This document shows, piece after piece, positions 2,212-13,645 of a DNA stretch of 61,179 nucleotides. The first letter of the stretch is position 1. Each line of letters starts with the position of its first letter. The stretch spans positions 1 through 61,179 of the forward strand of contig JALWIX010000032.1 of assembly GCA_027082175.1 (NCBI GenBank), read 5' to 3'. The position numbers and the translations under genes were made by a program. The notes beneath the pieces are model-generated. The model saw nothing but the letters and a program-made list of their open reading frames with translations, was not told where the DNA came from and ran no database searches. This DNA is from Campylobacterales bacterium (GTDB taxonomy: Bacteria > Campylobacterota > Campylobacteria > Campylobacterales > Nitratiruptoraceae).

Positions 2212-4101
2212 TTACCTTACCGGACTATAAACTATAGCTAAAACTAATAGAGTAATAAGACCGATAACCATCCATTTGAGCATTTTAGATAGGTTACCGC
2301 TTTGAACCACTCTACCTTTAAAGCCAGTTTTATAAATTACATTTGCGATGAAATCCACAGTCGCGTCTACTACTCTTAAATCTAACTCTTTCCAAGCTAT
2401 TCTAGAAAGTTCAGCATAAGGCTTTGAAAAAAATTTCTCATATATAATAGGAATATAATATTGATTAATTAACAATTTATATACAAATGTATCTTTCCAT
2501 TTCTCGCTAAATCCGCCTCTACTATATTTATACACTGCCAGACCGATGCCTGATAACGCGATTAAAGTCGTTATGCCGATCAATGCCACTACCGTTATGC
2601 CGTGGACATGAAAATGGTATTCAGGCAATAACATAGTGACAAAATGTTCAAAGCTCTCTTCAAAGAATCCAGAAATAATTGCCAATATAGCAAGAGGCAA
2701 CATTGCTAATAACATATACCAATAAGCTTCATGTGGATGAAAACCGTATTTTTTATATCTCTCTTCGCCAAAGAATACTAACATTACAAGTCTAAAACTG
2801 TAAAAAGCAGTCATACCGGCTCCAAGCCACAGCATAAACCAAAGCAAATAGTGCTCCGAATCAAAAGCTACCTCTAAAATCTTGTCTTTAGAGAAAAATC
2901 CTGCAAAAGGATATATCCCAGCTAGTGCAAGCGAGGCTATAATCATCATTATGGCAGTCCATTTCATAGTTTTAGCAAGACCGCCCATTTTGAATATATT
3001 TAACTCATCATCCATAGCATGCATAACGTTTCCCGCTCCTAAGAACAGAAGCGCTTTGAAAAACGCGTGAGTCATAAGGTGAAATAACGCAATCCAGTAT
3101 GCGCCTAACCCCGCGGCTACGAACATATAACCAAGCTGACTTAGAGTTGAATAAGCGATAATCCTTTTTAAGTCTTGATTAACTAGCGCCATTGATGCCG
3201 CAAATACAGCGACAAATGCGCCAATAGTAGCAATAAGAAGGCCTACATCGGGAATAGAGCTATATATCGGATTTGCTCTTATAACCAGATAAACGCCGGC
3301 AGTAACCATAGTAGCGGCGTGAATAAGCGCAGATACAGGAGTAGGACCTTCCATTGCGTCTGCTAACCAAGTATGAAGAGGAAACTGAGCAGATTTTCCC
3401 ATCGCGCCAATAAATAGAAAAATACCTATTAGACTTACTAATCCTATATTTAAAGCTGAAACGTCTTTAAATACTACATTATACTGCAACGATCCGGTAT
3501 TCCAATAGATCAAAAAGATACCGATAAGCATTCCAAGGTCGGCTATTCTATTCATAATAAAAGCTTCGTTCGCCGCCCAAGAAGGACTTATAGAAGGATT
3601 TATATCTCGCGTAACATCAGGTTTTTTATACCAAAATCCAACTAGTAACCAAGAACAAAGACCAACTCCCTCCCAACCTATAAAAAGACCTGCGAAATTA
3701 TCGCTCATAACAAGAATCATCATAGAAAAAACAAAGGCTGAAAGGTAAGAGAAAAATCTATTAAATCCTTCGTCATATTTCATATAACCAATAGAATAGA
3801 CATGTACTAGCGCGGAAACGGTTGTAACCGTAACCATCATAATAACGGATACTTGATCGACGACGAAACCAAAAGGTATATTTAACCCGCCAACGCTAAT
3901 CCAATCAAACAGTTTAACGTGGATACTATTTCCTGTTGACGTAACATAACCTAGCAAATATAGTGAACTAAATAGAGAAACAAATAACAACGCAGAGGCT
4001 ACAATCCCCGTAATTAACTTTTTTGGCTGCGCGCCAAAGATAGCTGCGAAAAGTGAACCTACTAATGGTGAAAACAGTGCAAGATATAGATATTTTTCCA
4101 T
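2212..4101 (-). CDS. nuoL: NADH-quinone oxidoreductase subunit L, NuoL
   Basis: A 629-residue membrane protein with the NuoL layout: an antiporter core of about 14 helices followed by a C-terminal lateral helix and final transmembrane anchor. Family motifs are visible: FIGWEGVGLCSWLLVGFW with the conserved glutamate, SAQFPLHTWLADAMEGPTPV, HAATMVTAGVYL, and AYSTLSQLGYM. It is the most distal proton-pumping subunit of complex I. It lies 10 nt after nuoK and 11 nt before nuoM in one operon. Length and motifs agree with a normal functional subunit. Confidence 0.97.
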   Translation of the reverse strand: MEKYLYLALFSPLVGSLFAAIFGAQPKKLITGIVASALLFVSLFSSLYLLGYVTSTGNSIHVKLFDWISVGGLNIPFGFVVDQVSVIMMVTVTTVSALVHVYSIGYMKYDEGFNRFFSYLSAFVFSMMILVMSDNFAGLFIGWEGVGLCSWLLVGFWYKKPDVTRDINPSISPSWAANEAFIMNRIADLGMLIGIFLIYWNTGSLQYNVVFKDVSALNIGLVSLIGIFLFIGAMGKSAQFPLHTWLADAMEGPTPVSALIHAATMVTAGVYLVIRANPIYSSIPDVGLLIATIGAFVAVFAASMALVNQDLKRIIAYSTLSQLGYMFVAAGLGAYWIALFHLMTHAFFKALLFLGAGNVMHAMDDELNIFKMGGLAKTMKWTAIMMIIASLALAGIYPFAGFFSKDKILEVAFDSEHYLLWFMLWLGAGMTAFYSFRLVMLVFFGEERYKKYGFHPHEAYWYMLLAMLPLAILAIISGFFEESFEHFVTMLLPEYHFHVHGITVVALIGITTLIALSGIGLAVYKYSRGGFSEKWKDTFVYKLLINQYYIPIIYEKFFSKPYAELSRIAWKELDLRVVDATVDFIANVIYKTGFKGRVVQSGNLSKMLKWMVIGLITLLVLAIVYSPVR

Positions 4102-4111
4102 GTGCCTTCCC

Positions 4112-4414
4112 TTAACCGTGCATTGATTGCATCGTATCTAGATCGATGCTTCCAACTCGTTTATACCAAATAATCAGTAAGCCAAGCCCTACGGCAACCT
4201 CGCTAGCCGCTATGGCGATAATAAAAAAAGCAAAAAGCTGACCAGTCAAATCCATGTAATATTTTGAAATTGCGGCAAAGCCAATATTTACAGCATTTAG
4301 TAACATCTCAGTGGCAAAAAACAGCATTAATAAATTCTTTCTTCTTAAGATTCCGACTAAGCCTATGCAAAATAGAATAGCCGACAATACCAAATAGTGA
4401 CTAAGTGTTATCAT
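4112..4414 (-). CDS. nuoK: NADH-quinone oxidoreductase subunit K, NuoK
   Basis: A 100-residue protein with three transmembrane helices, typical of NuoK. The conserved acidic residue of the proton path is visible in MLFFATEMLLNAVNI and a second one in IAASEVAVGLGLLI. Its ATG overlaps the nuoJ stop as ATGA, which implies translational coupling. NuoK links the quinone-reaction energy to proton pumping in the membrane arm. The gene order J-K-L-M-N is the standard complex I order. Confidence 0.97.
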   Translation of the reverse strand: MITLSHYLVLSAILFCIGLVGILRRKNLLMLFFATEMLLNAVNIGFAAISKYYMDLTGQLFAFFIIAIAASEVAVGLGLLIIWYKRVGSIDLDTMQSMHG

Positions 4415-4965
4415 TGCACTGCCTTTTCTTGAATTTCGTCATCGTCTTTAAGCGTTAAGCTTTCATCCATTCTTTTACTTGCCATAATAATTCCGGAAAT
4501 CATTGCAACTAAAAGCATAACTGCTGCAACTTCAAATGGAACTAAATATTTTGTAAACAAAACTATACCGACTGCTTCAGCGTTACCTATACCTTCTTTC
4601 ATAGGGTATAGAGCTTGAACCTTATCAGATATGATAGGCGCGACAAATATCACGACAAGCAACAACGCAGACATCCCGCTTAACAAAAACACCACCTTAT
4701 TGCTGGTATTATTCTCTTTAACATCTTTAGTGCTATCAAAAAACATCATACCAAACGCATACAAAGCCATAACTGCGCCGGTATAAACAATGATCTGCAC
4801 TACGCCTAAAAAATCGGCATCAAGGAGAAAAAAGAAACCGGATATAAAAATCATTCCAGCCGCCAAAGCGCTCATTGCATATAATGCGTTTTTACTCATT
4901 ACTGTGATTGTAAACATTGCTATAGTTAAAGTCGCAAATGTGTAAAAAGCTATCGCCTCTATCAT
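4411..4965 (-). CDS. nuoJ: NADH-quinone oxidoreductase subunit J, NuoJ
   Basis: A 184-residue membrane protein with five predicted helices, the usual NuoJ plan. The segment VVQIIVYTGAVMALYAFGMM corresponds to the conserved third helix, which carries the pi-bulge in known structures. A polar C-terminal tail follows. It starts 11 nt after nuoI and overlaps nuoK by 4 nt. NuoJ sits next to NuoK in the membrane arm of complex I and takes part in the coupling path. Its sequence is less conserved than its neighbours, but position and topology make the call secure. Confidence 0.95.
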   Translation of the reverse strand: MIEAIAFYTFATLTIAMFTITVMSKNALYAMSALAAGMIFISGFFFLLDADFLGVVQIIVYTGAVMALYAFGMMFFDSTKDVKENNTSNKVVFLLSGMSALLLVVIFVAPIISDKVQALYPMKEGIGNAEAVGIVLFTKYLVPFEVAAVMLLVAMISGIIMASKRMDESLTLKDDDEIQEKAVQ

Positions 4966-4976
4966 GACTATCCCTT

Positions 4977-5591
4977 TTAATAGGCTAATGGTGTTTTTTT
5001 AATAAGTCTATCCGCTTCTGGAGTCGGTGCTCCAAAACCTGGATACTCTTTTTGTTCTTTTAATTTATCAATAGGTGTAAGCATATCTTCTTTTAACGCA
5101 AAATGAGCTCTTTGATCACTCGCGTTTTCATAATCTGGACCATGAACTATTGCTAATTCTGGGCAAACTTCAGCACAATATCCGCAAAAAATACATCTAC
5201 CAAAATTTATTGTATATTCTGTTGGAACTTTCCTGCCATTCTCATCTATTTTAGTGTCTATTCTTATACATTTAGCAATACATATTTTTTCGCACAACCC
5301 GCAACCGATACATCTTTCATTGCCGCTTTCAAGAAGTCTTAACAATTTATGTATTGCTCTATATCTCGCTCCTATAGGCAATTTCTCTTTTGGATATTGA
5401 ATTGTGTGTATATTAAATCTTACCATCTCCATAAACACTATTTTCAAACCAACAAACAACTCGGTTTTAAATGTTCTTTTTACTACTCTTTTAAACTTCC
5501 CCCAAGGTGTTGTCGGATATTCTTCTATTTCTATCAGTTTATAGTTTTGCGATCCGACATATCTGCTTTTAAACTGTTCCAAACTCATCAT
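4977..5591 (-). CDS. nuoI: NADH-quinone oxidoreductase subunit I, NuoI (2x[4Fe-4S] ferredoxin-type)
   Basis: A 204-residue peripheral subunit. It has two [4Fe-4S] binding motifs, CIGCGLCEKICIAKC and CIFCGYCAEVCPELA, which hold clusters N6a and N6b on the electron path from NuoG to NuoB. The N-terminal 60 residues contain an amphipathic membrane-contact region, as in other NuoI. Two ATGs are adjacent at 5591 and 5588. The G-rich Shine-Dalgarno at about 5593-5600 lies better for the second, so the protein may be one residue shorter. It is directly after nuoH and before nuoJ. Confidence 0.97.
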   Translation of the reverse strand: MMSLEQFKSRYVGSQNYKLIEIEEYPTTPWGKFKRVVKRTFKTELFVGLKIVFMEMVRFNIHTIQYPKEKLPIGARYRAIHKLLRLLESGNERCIGCGLCEKICIAKCIRIDTKIDENGRKVPTEYTINFGRCIFCGYCAEVCPELAIVHGPDYENASDQRAHFALKEDMLTPIDKLKEQKEYPGFGAPTPEADRLIKKTPLAY

Positions 5592-5598
5592 ATCCCCC

Positions 5599-6591
5599 TC
5601 ATATCATTAAAACAATACCGGTAATTACAATATTTATAAGCGCAACAGGCATTAAAACTTTCCAACATAGCCACATCAATTGATCTGGTCTGATATGAGG
5701 CCAAGCCGCTCTAGTCCATAAAAATAAAAATATAAAGAAAAAGACTTTCAATAAAATAGCTATAGCTCCAGGTATAAATCCCCAATCATTAAATCCGCCT
5801 AAAAAGATTATACTAACCAAAAACGATACCGTAAATAGGTTGGCGTATTCTCCGATAAAGAACATACCCCATCTCATTCCCGAATATTCCGTTGCATAAC
5901 CGGAAACCACTTCCGCCTCATGCTCTAAAAGGTCAAAAGGCGTTCTGTTTGTCTCGGCAAACCCTGCGATCAAGAAAAGCACAAAAGCTACCGGCTGACT
6001 CCAAATTATCCAGTTTTCCATTCCGCCTGATTGATAGTTGTTTATATCGATCAATGAAAGCGAGCCAACCATCATCAGAGGGGCGAGAACTGATAATCCT
6101 GTAACAATTTCAAAGCTAAGAAGCTGGATAGTTGTCCTTGCTGCTCCTATCAACGACCACTTATTGCCAGAAGCCATACCCGCTAAAAGCGGTCCGTACA
6201 TTCCAACTGCCATAACGCCTAAAACATATAAAAGTCCAACGTTTATATCCGAGATTATTGGCCTAACGGTATATCCGCCAATCGTAAATTCCGGGAACAT
6301 AGGTATTGCCGCCATAGCCATAAATGCGGTGGCGGCTGTGATTACGGGCGCTATTTTAAAAATCGATTTTACTGCATTTTGTGGGACAAAATCCTCTTTA
6401 GTAAAGAGTTTTATCCCGTCAGCCAAAACCTGTAAAATACCATAAGGTCCAACATGCATAGGACCAAGCCTTCTTTGCATGAAAGCAAGGACTTTACGCT
6501 CAACGTATGTCGCAAAACCAGCAAGAGCCGAAAAAAGACCCAAAACTATTAAAATCTTGATAATAGTCTCTATGATAAATGCACCACTCAT
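5599..6591 (-). CDS. nuoH: NADH-quinone oxidoreductase subunit H, NuoH
   Basis: A 330-residue protein with eight predicted transmembrane helices, standard for NuoH. Quinone-site and family motifs are visible: ERKVLAFMQRRLGPMHVGPYG near the N-terminus, ETNRTPFDLLEHEAEVVSGY in the acidic loop, and RAAWPHIRPDQLM near the end. NuoH joins the peripheral arm to the membrane arm and forms the quinone entry tunnel. It lies 3 nt after nuoG2 and ends 7-10 nt before the nuoI start, so it belongs to the same transcript. Confidence 0.97.
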   Translation of the reverse strand: MSGAFIIETIIKILIVLGLFSALAGFATYVERKVLAFMQRRLGPMHVGPYGILQVLADGIKLFTKEDFVPQNAVKSIFKIAPVITAATAFMAMAAIPMFPEFTIGGYTVRPIISDINVGLLYVLGVMAVGMYGPLLAGMASGNKWSLIGAARTTIQLLSFEIVTGLSVLAPLMMVGSLSLIDINNYQSGGMENWIIWSQPVAFVLFLIAGFAETNRTPFDLLEHEAEVVSGYATEYSGMRWGMFFIGEYANLFTVSFLVSIIFLGGFNDWGFIPGAIAILLKVFFFIFLFLWTRAAWPHIRPDQLMWLCWKVLMPVALINIVITGIVLMI

Positions 6592-6594
6592 AGC

Positions 6595-9081
6595 TTACAC
6601 CTTTTCAATGTTTACTTCAGTAAATCTATATCCATTGCCGAAGATTTTTTCGGCATCTATCTTTTTATCAAAGGTAGGAATATACGCGCCACTACCTATT
6701 TTATCATCAAGTTTTACTTCTAATGTAATGGTATTGTTTTCTTTTTGAATTTTAACTTTATCGCCCTCATTTAGCTCAAATTCTTTCATAAATGTTTCGC
6801 TTGCATACAATCCGCCGCTCTCTTTTAGCTGGTGTGTTTTGGCGGTGAATGGGTTAAATTGCAATACCGGTTCGCATCTATACACCACAATGCCGTTAAA
6901 CTCAGGCAACTCCTCTATCTCCTCAACTCTCTCCCTACTAATTGCCACCTTATTCGACTCTAATATATAACCTCTCTCCTCTTGACCGGCATTTGTAAAA
7001 TAATTCGGCAACTCATCAAAATCTATAGCTTTAAAACCCTTCTCTTTAGGTAGCTCTTTTGTAAACTCTATCGTATATTCCTTATCGCTAACCCCCAAAG
7101 CTCTAGCTATATCATTAAGCACGTACCCTTCGTAAGGTAACGCAACATTTGTAGGCACAACCCTCTTGTCAATATTTGTAAACGTACCCTCCTGTTGATT
7201 GAGCGCCGGCATATCCAAATCGCCATCACCCAACGCACTCAATACAAAATCGCCCTCTGTGTTATAACCTATAACAAATTCTCCCTCTTCCTCATCCAAA
7301 TCACATATCAAAGAAACTCCAAGCGTATTTGTCCTAGGAGGTATAATCATCACATCAAAATCCGTAAACCTATCTATCAACCCAGCCAATCTAGCTATAT
7401 TCTCAGCCCTAGGATGTGTGTATAAATCCTCGCCTAATATAAGTGTCGACCTCTCTCTTTTAGATAAGACTTTTTCCAATTTATCCATAAAATCTGACGG
7501 CGCGTCAAGCATATCCAAAAGTTTCGTATGATCAACTTTGATAGTTTTTTTAACTTTTTTTGGAACTATTTTAGTCTCTTCAACTTCTATCTCTTTCTCT
7601 TCTCCAGTCTCTTCGTCTTTTACTCTCTTTTTGACTTTTTGTGTTACTTTCTCTTTGACTGTCTCTTCAATCTCTTTATCTATTTGAGTATGGAGAGATT
7701 CTAGATATGAGACAATCTTTTTAGGAAGTTTCTCTTTGTCGGCAAACATTTCCAAAATAAGATATAAAGCCGCTTCCTCTTTTAAAGGTTTATGATACAC
7801 AGGAACTACGCTTTTGCCAAGAGACTCTATCACAGGGTCTTTTAACGGATGAAAATATATTCCGCCGCCCTTATTCATTTTAACAGCGTTATTATAGGCG
7901 AATCTTACTCTAGGGTTATCGCTTTTAAGTTGACTTCCAATAGATACCACAAAATTGGATTCGTGAATATTTTTAACATCTGCGCTATATAAAGAAGAAC
8001 CGCTAGTTTTTGAATATGTGTTTAAGAACTTTTTATAATTTAACGCGTCTTGATTTATAAGTTTATAACCATATTTTTCTTTCAATTTTTGTAGTATTAA
8101 TGCCTCTTCGTTTGTTATATATGAGTTAAATTTTATAGTGTCTGCTTTTTTGAAAGCGTTTATCGCATTTTCAAATGCTTTTTCATCTTTTTTTGCTCTA
8201 TTTTCAAAATCAAATCCAAATCTGCCCGCACCGCATAAAGGCTGATAATGAAACTCATTTGTTACTCTGTAGAGTTTTGGCTCTGGATTATCGATAGAGG
8301 TATGTTTTGTTTCATAATACAGATGGCATGTAGCACTGCAGTGTGCACAAGAAGCTGGAATTTTGTTTAGTTCCCAAGAATTTGTAGTGTACATATAATC
8401 TTTACTAACTAAAGCTCCAACCGGACAAACCGCAATGCACTCACCGCACCAAGTACAATCGAGTTCTTCTCCAGCAACAGCGCCTATTATCGATTTTTGA
8501 AGCTTGTTCCACATTGCATAGGCATCTTTTGGCATCTCGTTTTTGAGCTCTTTAGGAAGTTTATCGCCGCCTCTTGGTACGGTCTTTAGCGCTGAATCGC
8601 CAATTAGGTCTTTACATACTGTCACACATCTTTCACAAACAATACAAAGCGAAGCGTCATAATGTATAAAATTCCAATCTTTAATAGGTCTATTGGTGTC
8701 TCTGATAGCGTAGTGCTGTTCATCTACGCCCATTTCCAAAGTGTAGTTTTGTAGCTCACATTCACCGCTTTGATCACAAACACCGCACTCCAATGGATGG
8801 TTTACGTCATAAACCTCCATAATCGCTCGTCGCTCTTTTATAATATTTTCAGTTACGGTAACAACATTCATCCCGTCTTTGGCTTTAGCGTTACATGCAT
8901 ATACCTGTTTGCCGTCAGCCTCGACAAGACACAATCTACAAGCAAGTGTAGGCGAACAACCTGTCAAATAGCATATAGCTGGAATAAAAATATCGTTAGC
9001 TCTCGCAACATTTAGTATAAACTCACCCTCACGAGTTTCACACTCTTTGCCGTCTATAATTATCTTTATTTTCTCACTCAT
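6595..9081 (-). CDS. nuoG: Second NuoG-like subunit (NuoG2), complex I iron-sulfur protein
   Basis: An 828-residue paralogue of the gene just upstream. The N-terminus has a [2Fe-2S] domain (CYLTG then CRLC), a HxxxCxxC...C motif (HPLECGVCDQSGEC), two ferredoxin-like sets (CIVCERCVTVC and CTWCGECIAVCP) and the CAHCSATCHL motif, followed by a molybdopterin-oxidoreductase-type domain without recognisable cofactor residues. Unlike G1 it has an extra Lys/Glu/Val-rich stretch of about 55 residues (roughly 475-530) before the C-terminal part. Residues about 543-753 are identical to G1 down to the DNA. It overlaps nuoG1 as ATGA. It probably adds or replaces iron-sulfur wiring at the top of complex I. 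Confidence 0.93.
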   Translation of the reverse strand: MSEKIKIIIDGKECETREGEFILNVARANDIFIPAICYLTGCSPTLACRLCLVEADGKQVYACNAKAKDGMNVVTVTENIIKERRAIMEVYDVNHPLECGVCDQSGECELQNYTLEMGVDEQHYAIRDTNRPIKDWNFIHYDASLCIVCERCVTVCKDLIGDSALKTVPRGGDKLPKELKNEMPKDAYAMWNKLQKSIIGAVAGEELDCTWCGECIAVCPVGALVSKDYMYTTNSWELNKIPASCAHCSATCHLYYETKHTSIDNPEPKLYRVTNEFHYQPLCGAGRFGFDFENRAKKDEKAFENAINAFKKADTIKFNSYITNEEALILQKLKEKYGYKLINQDALNYKKFLNTYSKTSGSSLYSADVKNIHESNFVVSIGSQLKSDNPRVRFAYNNAVKMNKGGGIYFHPLKDPVIESLGKSVVPVYHKPLKEEAALYLILEMFADKEKLPKKIVSYLESLHTQIDKEIEETVKEKVTQKVKKRVKDEETGEEKEIEVEETKIVPKKVKKTIKVDHTKLLDMLDAPSDFMDKLEKVLSKRERSTLILGEDLYTHPRAENIARLAGLIDRFTDFDVMIIPPRTNTLGVSLICDLDEEEGEFVIGYNTEGDFVLSALGDGDLDMPALNQQEGTFTNIDKRVVPTNVALPYEGYVLNDIARALGVSDKEYTIEFTKELPKEKGFKAIDFDELPNYFTNAGQEERGYILESNKVAISRERVEEIEELPEFNGIVVYRCEPVLQFNPFTAKTHQLKESGGLYASETFMKEFELNEGDKVKIQKENNTITLEVKLDDKIGSGAYIPTFDKKIDAEKIFGNGYRFTEVNIEKV
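6824..7454 (-). repeat. Identical 631-bp tract shared by nuoG2 and nuoG1 (copy in nuoG2)
   Basis: Line-by-line comparison shows this stretch equals 9316-9946 at every base, at a constant offset of 2492 bp. It encodes about residues 543-753 of NuoG2. The match stops sharply at both ends, and outside it the two proteins are clearly paralogous but differ at many residues. Perfect agreement at silent sites points to recent gene conversion. Confidence 0.95.
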
Positions 9082-11351
9082 TGTCCGCTCGCTTTTTCAA
9101 TTTTTATCACTTGGTATCGATAATCCGATAGTATATCAAAGTAGCTTAATCCCATATCAAAAGTTTCTAAAAGACCTATAGTTCCTTTAAGGCTTGTGTC
9201 AATTCTAAACACCCTTTTTATCTCCCCAAAAGAAGTTTTTATAACTACTTCATCGCCATCTTTCAGTTTAGCAGCAATAGAAAACTGTTTGGAACCCACT
9301 AACTCGGAAGAGAAGTTTAGCTGGTGTGTTTTGGCGGTGAATGGGTTAAATTGCAATACCGGTTCGCATCTATACACCACAATGCCGTTAAACTCAGGCA
9401 ACTCCTCTATCTCCTCAACTCTCTCCCTACTAATTGCCACCTTATTCGACTCTAATATATAACCTCTCTCCTCTTGACCGGCATTTGTAAAATAATTCGG
9501 CAACTCATCAAAATCTATAGCTTTAAAACCCTTCTCTTTAGGTAGCTCTTTTGTAAACTCTATCGTATATTCCTTATCGCTAACCCCCAAAGCTCTAGCT
9601 ATATCATTAAGCACGTACCCTTCGTAAGGTAACGCAACATTTGTAGGCACAACCCTCTTGTCAATATTTGTAAACGTACCCTCCTGTTGATTGAGCGCCG
9701 GCATATCCAAATCGCCATCACCCAACGCACTCAATACAAAATCGCCCTCTGTGTTATAACCTATAACAAATTCTCCCTCTTCCTCATCCAAATCACATAT
9801 CAAAGAAACTCCAAGCGTATTTGTCCTAGGAGGTATAATCATCACATCAAAATCCGTAAACCTATCTATCAACCCAGCCAATCTAGCTATATTCTCAGCC
9901 CTAGGATGTGTGTATAAATCCTCGCCTAATATAAGTGTCGACCTCTTTGCCCTTACTCTTCTTTTTCTTGTTAACCTCTTTAGAACATCTTCTATCTCTT
10001 CTTCACCCACATTACTCTCAGCGCTAAGATATCCTATATCTAAATCTTCAAACCACTCTTTATCAATATTCTCTTTATCTTCTTTAGAAAGAAGAGCGTT
10101 TGCCAACATTGCCATAACGCCCTCTTCTGTTCCAACTTCATATCTTACGAACTTAGTGACGACATTTTTTAATAGCTCATCCTCCATAGGATGAAAATTT
10201 ATTATCTCACTATTTCTTTTTCTATTTGAAACTGTCATAGCGTATCTAACGGCTGGATTATCGGTTGCCACCATAGTGCCGAAAATTATTATAAAATCAC
10301 TATTTTTTATATCTTCTAAGTCTGCAGAGTAAAGAGTTCTGCCGCTAAACTCGCTATATTTTTTCAAAAACTTTTGATACGCTTTCGCTTCGTTGTTAAT
10401 AAGCTTAAATCCAAACTTCTCTTTCAATTTCTGAAGTATTAAAGCTTCCTCGTTTGTAATAATAGAGTTAAATTTTATTGTATCAGCTTTTTTGAAAGCT
10501 TTTAACGCATTATTAAAAGCATTTTCATCTTTTACAGCTTTGTTTTCAAAGTCAAACCCAAACCTGCCTGCTCCGCAAAGATTTGCAAATTCATACTCAT
10601 TTTTTACTCTGTATATTTTTGGCTCTGGATTATCGATAGATGCATGCTTGATTTCATAATAAAGATGACAAGCGGCGCTACAATGGGCGCAAGCTGCCGG
10701 AACTCTTCTTAATTCCCAAGCGTTTGCGCTATATTGAAAATCTTTGCTTATCAATGCTCCGACAGGACAAACTGCGATACATTCTCCGCAAAAAGTACAC
10801 TCTAGCGTAGGTGCATCCTTTGGAATTATTTGGGATTTGTATCCGCCGTATTCTATCTCAATGGCGTCATCGCCTATTACCTCATTACAAACATGCACGC
10901 ACTTTTCGCACAAGATACATAATGAGGGATCATATTGAATATAGTTCCAATCTTTTATCTTCCTATTTTGATCTTTTGCAGTGAATTCTTGCGAGTTCAC
11001 CATAAACTCAAGAGTTTTATTTTGAAGATCACACTCGCCGCTTTTATCGCAAACCCCGCATTCAAGCGGATGATTTACATCATATAGTTTCATTATGTTT
11101 TGTCTATGAGTAAAAAGCTCCGCTGAATTTGTTTTTACTTTAATATCCGGTGTTGGAGGTGTTTGACAGCTAAGAACAAACCCCTCTACACCTTCCACTT
11201 CCACAACGCAAAGACGGCAAGATTCGATCGGCTTAACTTTAGGCAAATAACACATTGTCGGGATATATATCCCCTCTCTTCTTGCAACTTGAAGTATAGT
11301 TTCGCCTTTTTTAGCTGTCACTTCACGTCCGTCAATATAAAACTTTATCAT
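9078..11351 (-). CDS. nuoG: NADH-quinone oxidoreductase subunit G (NuoG1)
   Basis: A 757-residue iron-sulfur subunit. Cluster ligands are easy to see: C34, C45, C48 and C62 for a [2Fe-2S] centre; H94, C98, C101 and C107; C145, C148, C151 and C155; C185, C188, C191 and C195; and C221, C224 and C228 of the motif CAHCSAACHL. A degenerate molybdopterin-type domain follows. Residues about 469-679 are encoded by a tract identical to one in nuoG2, while the C-terminal 80 residues differ. It lies 10 nt after the NuoF-like gene. NuoG normally receives electrons from NuoF and passes them to NuoI. Confidence 0.95.
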   Translation of the reverse strand: MIKFYIDGREVTAKKGETILQVARREGIYIPTMCYLPKVKPIESCRLCVVEVEGVEGFVLSCQTPPTPDIKVKTNSAELFTHRQNIMKLYDVNHPLECGVCDKSGECDLQNKTLEFMVNSQEFTAKDQNRKIKDWNYIQYDPSLCILCEKCVHVCNEVIGDDAIEIEYGGYKSQIIPKDAPTLECTFCGECIAVCPVGALISKDFQYSANAWELRRVPAACAHCSAACHLYYEIKHASIDNPEPKIYRVKNEYEFANLCGAGRFGFDFENKAVKDENAFNNALKAFKKADTIKFNSIITNEEALILQKLKEKFGFKLINNEAKAYQKFLKKYSEFSGRTLYSADLEDIKNSDFIIIFGTMVATDNPAVRYAMTVSNRKRNSEIINFHPMEDELLKNVVTKFVRYEVGTEEGVMAMLANALLSKEDKENIDKEWFEDLDIGYLSAESNVGEEEIEDVLKRLTRKRRVRAKRSTLILGEDLYTHPRAENIARLAGLIDRFTDFDVMIIPPRTNTLGVSLICDLDEEEGEFVIGYNTEGDFVLSALGDGDLDMPALNQQEGTFTNIDKRVVPTNVALPYEGYVLNDIARALGVSDKEYTIEFTKELPKEKGFKAIDFDELPNYFTNAGQEERGYILESNKVAISRERVEEIEELPEFNGIVVYRCEPVLQFNPFTAKTHQLNFSSELVGSKQFSIAAKLKDGDEVVIKTSFGEIKRVFRIDTSLKGTIGLLETFDMGLSYFDILSDYRYQVIKIEKASGQ
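9316..9946 (-). repeat. Identical 631-bp tract shared by nuoG1 and nuoG2 (copy in nuoG1)
   Basis: This is the partner of the tract in nuoG2 and encodes about residues 469-679 of NuoG1. It begins just after a divergent Arg/Lys-rich linker (around the residues KRRVRAKRS) and ends before a C-terminal segment unique to G1. As a direct repeat in tandem genes it could also recombine to delete or fuse them. Confidence 0.95.
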
Positions 11352-11361
11352 GTACGCGCCC

Positions 11362-13401
11362 CTAAATAGCTACCATAGCGATATAATAACATCTCATACA
11401 TCTTTCAGCTTCCGCAATAGCCTCTTCCTGAGTAAAACCTAAATTTACCTCTTTATTGTTATCTTTTCTCTCTTCAACAGTTAGTTTCTCGCTAACTACT
11501 CTTGGAAGACCAGGAAGCCAACCGGTTATTTTCTCTTTTTTATCATAGACTTTTAGATTTCTTAAATGATCTTCCATAATCTCTTCGTCAGTTAAGGTTA
11601 CTTCGCCGGTTTGAACATATCTACTCATAACGGAAGCCGCTCTTTTAGCCTGACCTACCGCATTAACTATAGTCATAGGTCCATATTCGCAGTCGCCTGC
11701 CGCAAATACGCCTTTTCTTGAACTCATATATGTTTTACCATCCGTTTTTATAGTACCCCAGCTAGTAAGTTCGATCTCCCACTCTTCAGGAAGATGCGAA
11801 AGATCGGCACTTTGGCTAACCGCGGGTATAAGATAGTCGCACTCTATTTCAAAATCAGCGCCTTCAATCTTTACAAGTTGCGGCCTACCTCCGTTAGGGT
11901 CAGGAACCAACTCAAATCTATTTACTTTAAGCTTTTTGAGCCTATCATTTTCGTCTGTTATAATCTCTTCAACAGCTGAGTAGAAAATAAACTCTACACC
12001 CTCTTCTACCGCTTCATGATACTCTTCGTAAGTAGTATTTCTAATAATCGTTGCTTCATCCCGGCGATATAGCATAATAACTTTTTTTGCGTTGGCTCTA
12101 ACCGCACATCTAACAACATCCATAGACGTAAAACCACCGCCAACGCAAACAACTGTTTTCCCGGTCAAATCCACATAATCTTTATCGAGCATCTGCTGTT
12201 CTTGTATCTCTTTTGGCACCGGAATCCCATATTTAACATACAAATTTACGCAGTCCAAAAAGTTAATGGCCCCCCAATAGCCTTTAATCTCTTCTCTTTC
12301 ATTTTTTGCTCTAACTTTTTTAGATATTCTTGTGCCCGTAGCTACAAGTATTGCGTCATACTCTTTTTCAAATCTTCTCATGTCGTCGGCAGTTACTCTT
12401 TTACCGGTTATAAACTTTACGCCGTTTAGCGAAGCGACCGCTTCTATATCTTTGTTATATTTTCCAACGGGCATTCTATATTCTGGAACTCCTACGGCAA
12501 CTTCGCCTCCAAGGACAGGGAGTTCTTCGTAAATATCGCATGCAACGCCCTCTAACGCCAAATAATACGCGCCCGTTAAACCTGCGGGACCTGCCCCTAT
12601 AATCGCTACTTTTTTGCCATTTAAAGGTTTTTGCTCTTTAGGATGTAGCCAAAAAAGTCCATGATTATCTTCAAAATCTGCGCCAATCCTTTTAAGCTCC
12701 ATAATAGAGATTGGTTCGTCAAGGTTGGCCCTTCTGCAAGCGTCTTCGCATGGGTGAGGACATACGCGTCCACAAGTATGAGCAAGAGGCATTGTCTTTC
12801 TTGTTGCCTGCAAACTATCGTCAAATCTTAAATCTCTAACGCCTTCTATATACGCAGGAATATCTACATGCGCAGGACAAGCATCCATACATGGCGCCGT
12901 AACTTTAGCAATATAGTTTATATCTTCATAGTAATGAGGGGAGGGTTTTTTATTTTCTATCAAGCTATTAATATCTTCTTCAAAATATTCTAAAATCGAT
13001 AAAAGTGGTCTTGGGACAGTTCTGCCTATTTCACATTTACTGGTTTCCATCATTGTTCTAGAAACCTCTTTTAGGTGCTCAACATCGCTCTTTTCGCCTT
13101 CGCCCCTGGCTATCTTATCAAACAGATCATAAAGAATTCTGCCTCCCCATCTTCCTGGCGCGCATCTTCCGCAAGCTTCGGAATAGATTTGATACTGCTT
13201 AGCGTACTCTGCAGCAAGCCTAACCACATCTACGTTCTCATCAAAGAGCGCGAACCCATCCCATCCTATAAATGCTTTAGAGTTTATATCTATATTGTAA
13301 TTGACTGGAAAATTGTATGATGACTCTGCCCACTCTTCTATAGGCTTGCCTCTGTTGTCGATAAATTCATCTCGCCAACATGAAAAATAGACTTTGCTCA
13401 C
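11362..13401 (-). CDS. NuoF-like iron-sulfur domain fused to GltD/NfnB-like NAD(P)H oxidoreductase, complex I electron-input candidate
   Basis: The Shine-Dalgarno GAGG sits 8 nt before a GTG at 13401, giving 679 residues; the upstream TTG at 13434 has no such site. The first 150 residues hold ACGRCAPGRWGG and a later cysteine in ETSKCEIGR, matching the N3-cluster end of NuoF. The NuoF FMN/NADH domain (GRGGAGFP type) is absent. From about residue 165 it is GltD-like: CMDACPAH and CGRVCPHPCEDAC for [4Fe-4S] clusters, IIGAGPAGLTGAYY for FAD, and VCVGGGFTSMD plus YRRDE for NAD(P)H. It ends with CMRC. Located between nuoE-like and nuoG1, it probably feeds electrons from NAD(P)H or ferredoxin into complex I. 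The true donor is unknown. Confidence 0.88.
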   Translation of the reverse strand: MSKVYFSCWRDEFIDNRGKPIEEWAESSYNFPVNYNIDINSKAFIGWDGFALFDENVDVVRLAAEYAKQYQIYSEACGRCAPGRWGGRILYDLFDKIARGEGEKSDVEHLKEVSRTMMETSKCEIGRTVPRPLLSILEYFEEDINSLIENKKPSPHYYEDINYIAKVTAPCMDACPAHVDIPAYIEGVRDLRFDDSLQATRKTMPLAHTCGRVCPHPCEDACRRANLDEPISIMELKRIGADFEDNHGLFWLHPKEQKPLNGKKVAIIGAGPAGLTGAYYLALEGVACDIYEELPVLGGEVAVGVPEYRMPVGKYNKDIEAVASLNGVKFITGKRVTADDMRRFEKEYDAILVATGTRISKKVRAKNEREEIKGYWGAINFLDCVNLYVKYGIPVPKEIQEQQMLDKDYVDLTGKTVVCVGGGFTSMDVVRCAVRANAKKVIMLYRRDEATIIRNTTYEEYHEAVEEGVEFIFYSAVEEIITDENDRLKKLKVNRFELVPDPNGGRPQLVKIEGADFEIECDYLIPAVSQSADLSHLPEEWEIELTSWGTIKTDGKTYMSSRKGVFAAGDCEYGPMTIVNAVGQAKRAASVMSRYVQTGEVTLTDEEIMEDHLRNLKVYDKKEKITGWLPGLPRVVSEKLTVEERKDNNKEVNLGFTQEEAIAEAERCMRCYYIAMVAI

Positions 13402-13414
13402 TTTCTCACCCTCT

Positions 13415-13645
13415 TTAAGCTTTTCTTCTAACAACTATAGTCCAATCTACCTGATTGAACTTAAGCGAATTAAGAAGTTCGTGACCAGCCTCTTTTACTA
13501 AATCAGCACTTTTTTGGATCGGAGAAAAATCGCCAATTTCAAATAAAAATATCGCCACCTCTCCCGGCTTAACTTCATTTTCCAAAAGTTCCATCATTCG
13601 ATCGTAAAAGTTCTCTTTTAAATGTCTCAAATCATATCTAACCAT
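13415..13645 (-). CDS. Small NuoE-like subunit (HP1264/Cj1575c type)
   Basis: A 76-residue soluble protein in the nuoE position. Its length and style (MVRYDLRHLKENFYDRMMEL at the start, FLFEIGDF in the middle) match the short proteins that replace NuoE in Helicobacter (HP1264) and Campylobacter (Cj1575c). There are no cysteines, so it cannot hold the [2Fe-2S] centre of a true NuoE. AAGGA lies a few bases before the ATG. It ends 13 nt before the GTG of the NuoF-like gene. Its role is not known; a structural or docking role next to the NuoF-like unit is an inference. Confidence 0.82.
   Translation of the reverse strand: MVRYDLRHLKENFYDRMMELLENEVKPGEVAIFLFEIGDFSPIQKSADLVKEAGHELLNSLKFNQVDWTIVVRRKA

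Follow-up and report, generated by a model that had tools for sequence, protein, structure and literature searches.

Domain-limited gene conversion between functionally distinct bacterial paralogues has been described for RF1 and RF2, in two independent cases (Ishikawa et al. 2015, PMC4530459). Long-lasting recurrent concerted evolution was reported for 26 prokaryotic genes, including tuf and the nuoL of Aquificales (Wang and Chen 2018, PMC6053082). Many of these 26 genes encode parts of multi-subunit complexes, complex I in one instance, and the identity between their copies mostly extends over near full length; nuoG is absent from the 26. For tuf in Salmonella, conversion can span the whole gene and is limited by the gene bounds (Paulsson et al. 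2017, PMC5485169). As to complex I of Campylobacterota, epsilon-Nuo is described in a review as encoded by a nuoA-N type operon without canonical nuoEF (PMC6682613).

The tandem nuoG pair analysed here is a clear new example of known gene conversion, namely of domain-limited concerted evolution. As in RF1-RF2, conversion is confined to part of the paralogues and the surrounding domains stay separate (PMC4530459). The converted domain of RF1-RF2 serves a function common to both proteins, as that of the nuoG pair may do; unlike RF1-RF2, the nuoG case is recurrent and ongoing, involves two segments and concerns tandem genes in one operon. As with the genes of PMC6053082, the copies of the nuoG tract resemble each other more than their orthologues, silent sites included, but less than a third of nuoG is homogenised, and the remainder is ancient and distinct. 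Unlike in tuf (PMC5485169), the limit is not the gene bounds but an internal loss of homology within divergent genes. The operon is of the nuoA-N type with no canonical nuoEF, like epsilon-Nuo (PMC6682613), and differs in having a fusion of a NuoF domain and a GltD-like protein at the nuoE/F position. A tandem nuoG pair with exchange is not described in the passages of the review that we consulted. We found no earlier report of nuoG gene conversion, Nitratiruptor and Sulfurimonas included, in the literature within our reach, which most subscription journals are not.

The nuoG pair and its identical tract

The window, the whole stretch of 61,179 nucleotides that was analysed, contains a complex I operon of a Nitratiruptor-like member of the Campylobacterota, in which two nuoG genes are adjacent; all features described here lie on the minus strand. 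Open reading frames, Pfam and AlphaFold2 models define nuoG1, the first tandem copy of complex I subunit G (9078..11351, 757 aa), and nuoG2, the second copy (6595..9081, 828 aa), the start of nuoG2 overlapping the stop of nuoG1 by 4 bp (9078-9081). Directly downstream of the pair is an open reading frame (5599..6591) that, from its sequence and position, we take to be nuoH and that served as a probe in relatives. The nuoE/F position is occupied by a single 690-aa fusion (11362..13434; Pfam NADH_4Fe-4S, Fer4_20 and Pyr_redox_2), in which a NuoF-type 4Fe-4S domain is linked to a pyridine-nucleotide oxidoreductase of the GltD/Nfn type. The same fusion is present in the family members checked, and its domain content suggests electron input other than through canonical NuoEF.

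The original prediction had claimed that two stretches of the pair agree at every base at a constant offset of 2492. An exact-match scan returned the same coordinates, with a maximal match of 631 bp between 6824-7454 in nuoG2 (NuoG2 residues about 543-752) and 9316-9946 in nuoG1 (NuoG1 residues about 469-678). These two copies of the tract, hereafter T1, are direct repeats about 1.9 kb apart. Not one 40-mer was repeated at other offsets in the window, and a search of the whole genome found no third copy. Outside the tract, nuoG1 and nuoG2 are 44-58% identical, with one better-kept patch of about 75%, and the identity stops abruptly at both edges, as expected from the prediction of paralogous but divergent flanks. 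However, the tract had also been called the C-terminal region, which needs correction: about 78 residues of NuoG1 and 75 of NuoG2 lie beyond it, with a mutual identity of only 28%. The identity of the tract includes silent sites. Between nuoG1 and nuoG2, none of the 75 four-fold sites in the tract differ, against 32 of 42 in the N-terminal part, and the probability of 75 matches out of 75 at the match rate outside the tract is about 1e-47. Third-position GC in T1 was 0.40 against 0.28-0.36 in the other segments within the own family, and 0.397 against 0.37-0.42 in other families, where there is no rise; this composition is at most a hint of GC-biased conversion.

The edges of the tract are fixed across species and coincide with loss of homology. 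In most family members, the start of the tract falls at nearly the same residues; its end lies within a few residues of NuoG1 position 680, beyond which identity drops at once to 30-50%. A second converting segment, T2, comprises residues 262-335 of NuoG1 (10347..10568) and its counterpart in nuoG2 (8005..8226; repeat family D2, offset 2342). Denoting the genome of the window G000 and other genomes likewise by number, the T2 copies are 97-98% identical in G018 and G017, 81-91% identical in G001, G010, G011 and G055, and 75% identical in G000, where T2 has seen no recent conversion. The original prediction overlooked this segment because it is decayed in G000. Conversion is confined to T1 and T2, with the N-terminal, middle and C-terminal segments exempt, and its edges fall at predicted secondary-structure boundaries.

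Segment trees and recurrence across the order

Trees were built for 48 genomes of the order that have both nuoG genes on one contig. In each of the trees of residues 1-245, 340-460 and 684-757, one branch separates every NuoG1 from every NuoG2, and only one change of the G1/G2 label is needed in the N-terminal tree (support 100), in the middle one and in the C-terminal one. In the T1 tree, the copies group by genome, and 15 label changes are needed, 13 of them imposed by branches with good support; the T2 tree needs 16. For T1, an AU test rejected a clade uniting all NuoG1 (p 3e-29); for the N-terminal part, it rejected the grouping of the two copies of the own family (p 4e-10). Because three segments split once while T1 and T2 do not, and in view of the AU tests, the sequence data identify nuoG1 and nuoG2 as products of one ancient duplication, with exchange limited to two interior segments.

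In 12 of the 48 genomes, each T1 copy has the other as its nearest relative, ahead of any orthologue; these genomes comprise 9 of the 10 of the own family and one each in three other families, and this within-genome identity arose separately in at least 11 lineages. Counted over about 615 bp (for G000 by pairwise comparison), the two copies show no difference in G000, G001, G011, G016 and G019, the last being the closed genome of a sister species; they show 1 difference in G010, 3 in G018, 13 in G017, and 30 and 134 in the drafts G009 and G008, respectively. Between genomes, T1 is about 95% identical to that of G000 in the sister species, 76% in G018 and 71-72% in more distant family members. 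Outside the own family, too, exact tracts are found at this place, in three families: G112 has one of 574 bp, G055 one of 530 bp and G022 one of 188 bp. In most other families of the order the T1 copies are old and diverged, without recent conversion, which is therefore not universal. With 134 differences in 615 bp, G008 (L070) is the only family member with clearly diverged T1 copies, and its lineage seems to have escaped conversion.

The comparison of G000 with G019 bears on the timing of the last event. All 28 tract sites that differ between these genomes changed identically in both copies. A conversion as old as the split should have left many of the 28 sites differing between the copies, and since none do, the last conversion in G000 would date back less than about one tenth of the time since G000 and G019 split (upper 95% bound 3/28). 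The pair thus displays paralogues closer than orthologues, identity at silent sites, a duplication older than the species and several independent events, as concerted evolution implies. The conversion proposed in the original prediction is borne out by the relatives' genomes, closed assemblies among them, and by how synonymous divergence within the tract compares with that beyond it. Its suggestion that conversion might be very frequent here is likewise supported, and its other suggestion, that both subunits use the region in the same way, would be compatible with the data. Conversion is recurrent and ongoing, and several families have had it at this site; this goes beyond what was claimed and is well supported by these sequence comparisons.

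Predicted fold of the exchanged segments

Both proteins have the iron-sulfur domains of NuoG according to Pfam, and Pfam and Foldseek together place them in NuoG by N-terminal iron-sulfur domains followed by a molybdopterin-oxidoreductase-like domain. The Pfam matches of NuoG1 are Fer2_4, NADH-G_4Fe-4S_3, Fer4_Nqo3 and Molybdopterin, the last being recognised in NuoG1 only of the two. AlphaFold2 models of NuoG1 and NuoG2 (pLDDT of 84 and 86, respectively) gave whole-length Foldseek matches to the NuoG structures 7nz1_G and 3i9v_3 and to formate dehydrogenases. In the NuoG1 model, T1 starts with the strand 471-475 and stops short of the C-terminal strands that follow from 683, and the middle segment forms its own run of helices and strands. 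By comparison with the known fold of molybdopterin oxidoreductases, T2 and T1 together resemble a single alpha/beta domain that is split in two; the middle segment would presumably be a domain inserted into this split domain, and the C-terminus a barrel. The middle segment of NuoG2 has an insertion missing in NuoG1, residues 464-519 (7525..7692), upstream of T1, which is highly charged and is predicted by AlphaFold2, at modest confidence, to form one long beta hairpin (pLDDT about 58-84).

Mechanism, alternative explanations and significance

The explanation that we favour, with a probability of about 0.92, is that the nuoG genes are an ancient tandem pair in which T1, and in several lineages T2, has been repeatedly homogenised by non-reciprocal recombination. 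Both genes stem from one tandem duplication, and the closely spaced, near-identical direct repeats would recombine non-reciprocally, with RecA-type homologous recombination probably copying the tract. Copying would halt where the paralogues grow too dissimilar, and selection may purge exchanges that extend into the segments with separate functions, as well as those that delete one of the genes. Because each round restores perfect homology, such a process would be self-sustaining unless drift carries a lineage beyond the homology limit, which appears to have happened to that of G008.

Other explanations for the identical tract fare much worse against the relatives. Extreme purifying selection at the nucleotide level, for example on an overlapping gene or an RNA element, could account for silent sites being identical within one genome, but then the same sites should not vary between genomes. 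Four-fold sites of the tract in G000 differ at 12 of 73 from G019, at 36 of 58 from G018 and at 42 of 60 from G001, and the comparison with G018 gives 47 of 78 in the N-terminal part. Silent sites of the tract change between species as freely as others in the gene, which rules out such constraint and makes this the least credible of the alternatives; the original prediction was right that purifying selection alone cannot explain the silent identity. A lone recent event in the lineage of G000, either a conversion or a partial duplication, would suffice for this window taken alone, yet it is highly improbable and is refuted by the relatives, given the number of separate lineages with identical copies and the forced label changes in the T1 tree; re-duplication within lineages was ruled out by the three segment trees that split NuoG1 from NuoG2 once. 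It is just as improbable that an assembler wrote one repeat copy twice, a worry already raised in the original prediction. At 115 contigs, the G000 assembly is a draft, and breaks or collapses do occur at this place in the drafts of relatives. However, the same nuoG pair and tract are present in seven assemblies that consist of at most two contigs (G019, G018, G001, G011, G016, G010 and G017), and because the tract of G019 has the same length and edges as that of G000, an artefact in G000 is very unlikely.

A remaining possibility, which would add to conversion and not replace it, is that selection favours an identical module, for instance for a shared partner or for mutual contact of the two NuoG. 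The independent conversion of the same segments in several families and the match of the T1 edges to predicted structural units speak for such selection, but homology limits alone predict the same edges, about three quarters of the sampled genomes tolerate diverged T1 copies, and conversion by itself suffices for the synonymous identity. We consider it possible but unlikely. A more specific form, in which both NuoG reside in one complex and selection keeps the split alpha/beta module of T2 and T1 identical, is a little more doubtful still.

The draft genomes provide a separate view of the repeats. Exact repeats break short-read assemblies. In nine draft family genomes, 13 contig ends could be placed inside a nuoG, and all of them lie in T1 or T2, which together make up 37% of the gene; the chance of this is 0.37^13, about 3e-6, or 0.37^9, about 1e-4, when one end per genome is counted. 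These breaks give independent support to the identity of the repeats. A single hybrid nuoG, its head of the NuoG1 type and its tail of the NuoG2 type, lies directly before nuoH in G015 (L071, 3425-5686), and so does one in G088 of another family (L112, about 3750-5990). No orthologous NuoG2 head was found elsewhere in the bins of these two genomes. The hybrids may reflect a real deletion between the repeats or a collapse of the repeat in the draft with loss of a short contig; both genomes are fragmented drafts and a collapse gives the same product, so we do not count the hybrids as proof. In G020 (L072), the first nuoG has a NuoG2-type middle with the hairpin between a NuoG1 head and tail, which may stem from an exchange of unusual length or, this being a draft, from a repeat joined wrongly in assembly.

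Since two drafts show a single hybrid nuoG and the tract is where many contigs end, draft assemblies across nuoG can mislead in these bacteria, as can nuoG trees. The pair is an unusually clean natural case, with fixed edges and two converting segments interleaved with three that do not mix, and the order-wide comparisons, together with the lineage that apparently escaped, allow direct tests of homology versus selection at conversion edges. If the doubtful proposal of an identical module in one complex were true, conversion would be a device for co-evolving two subunits of the same machine whose electron-transfer and docking segments meanwhile become specialised.
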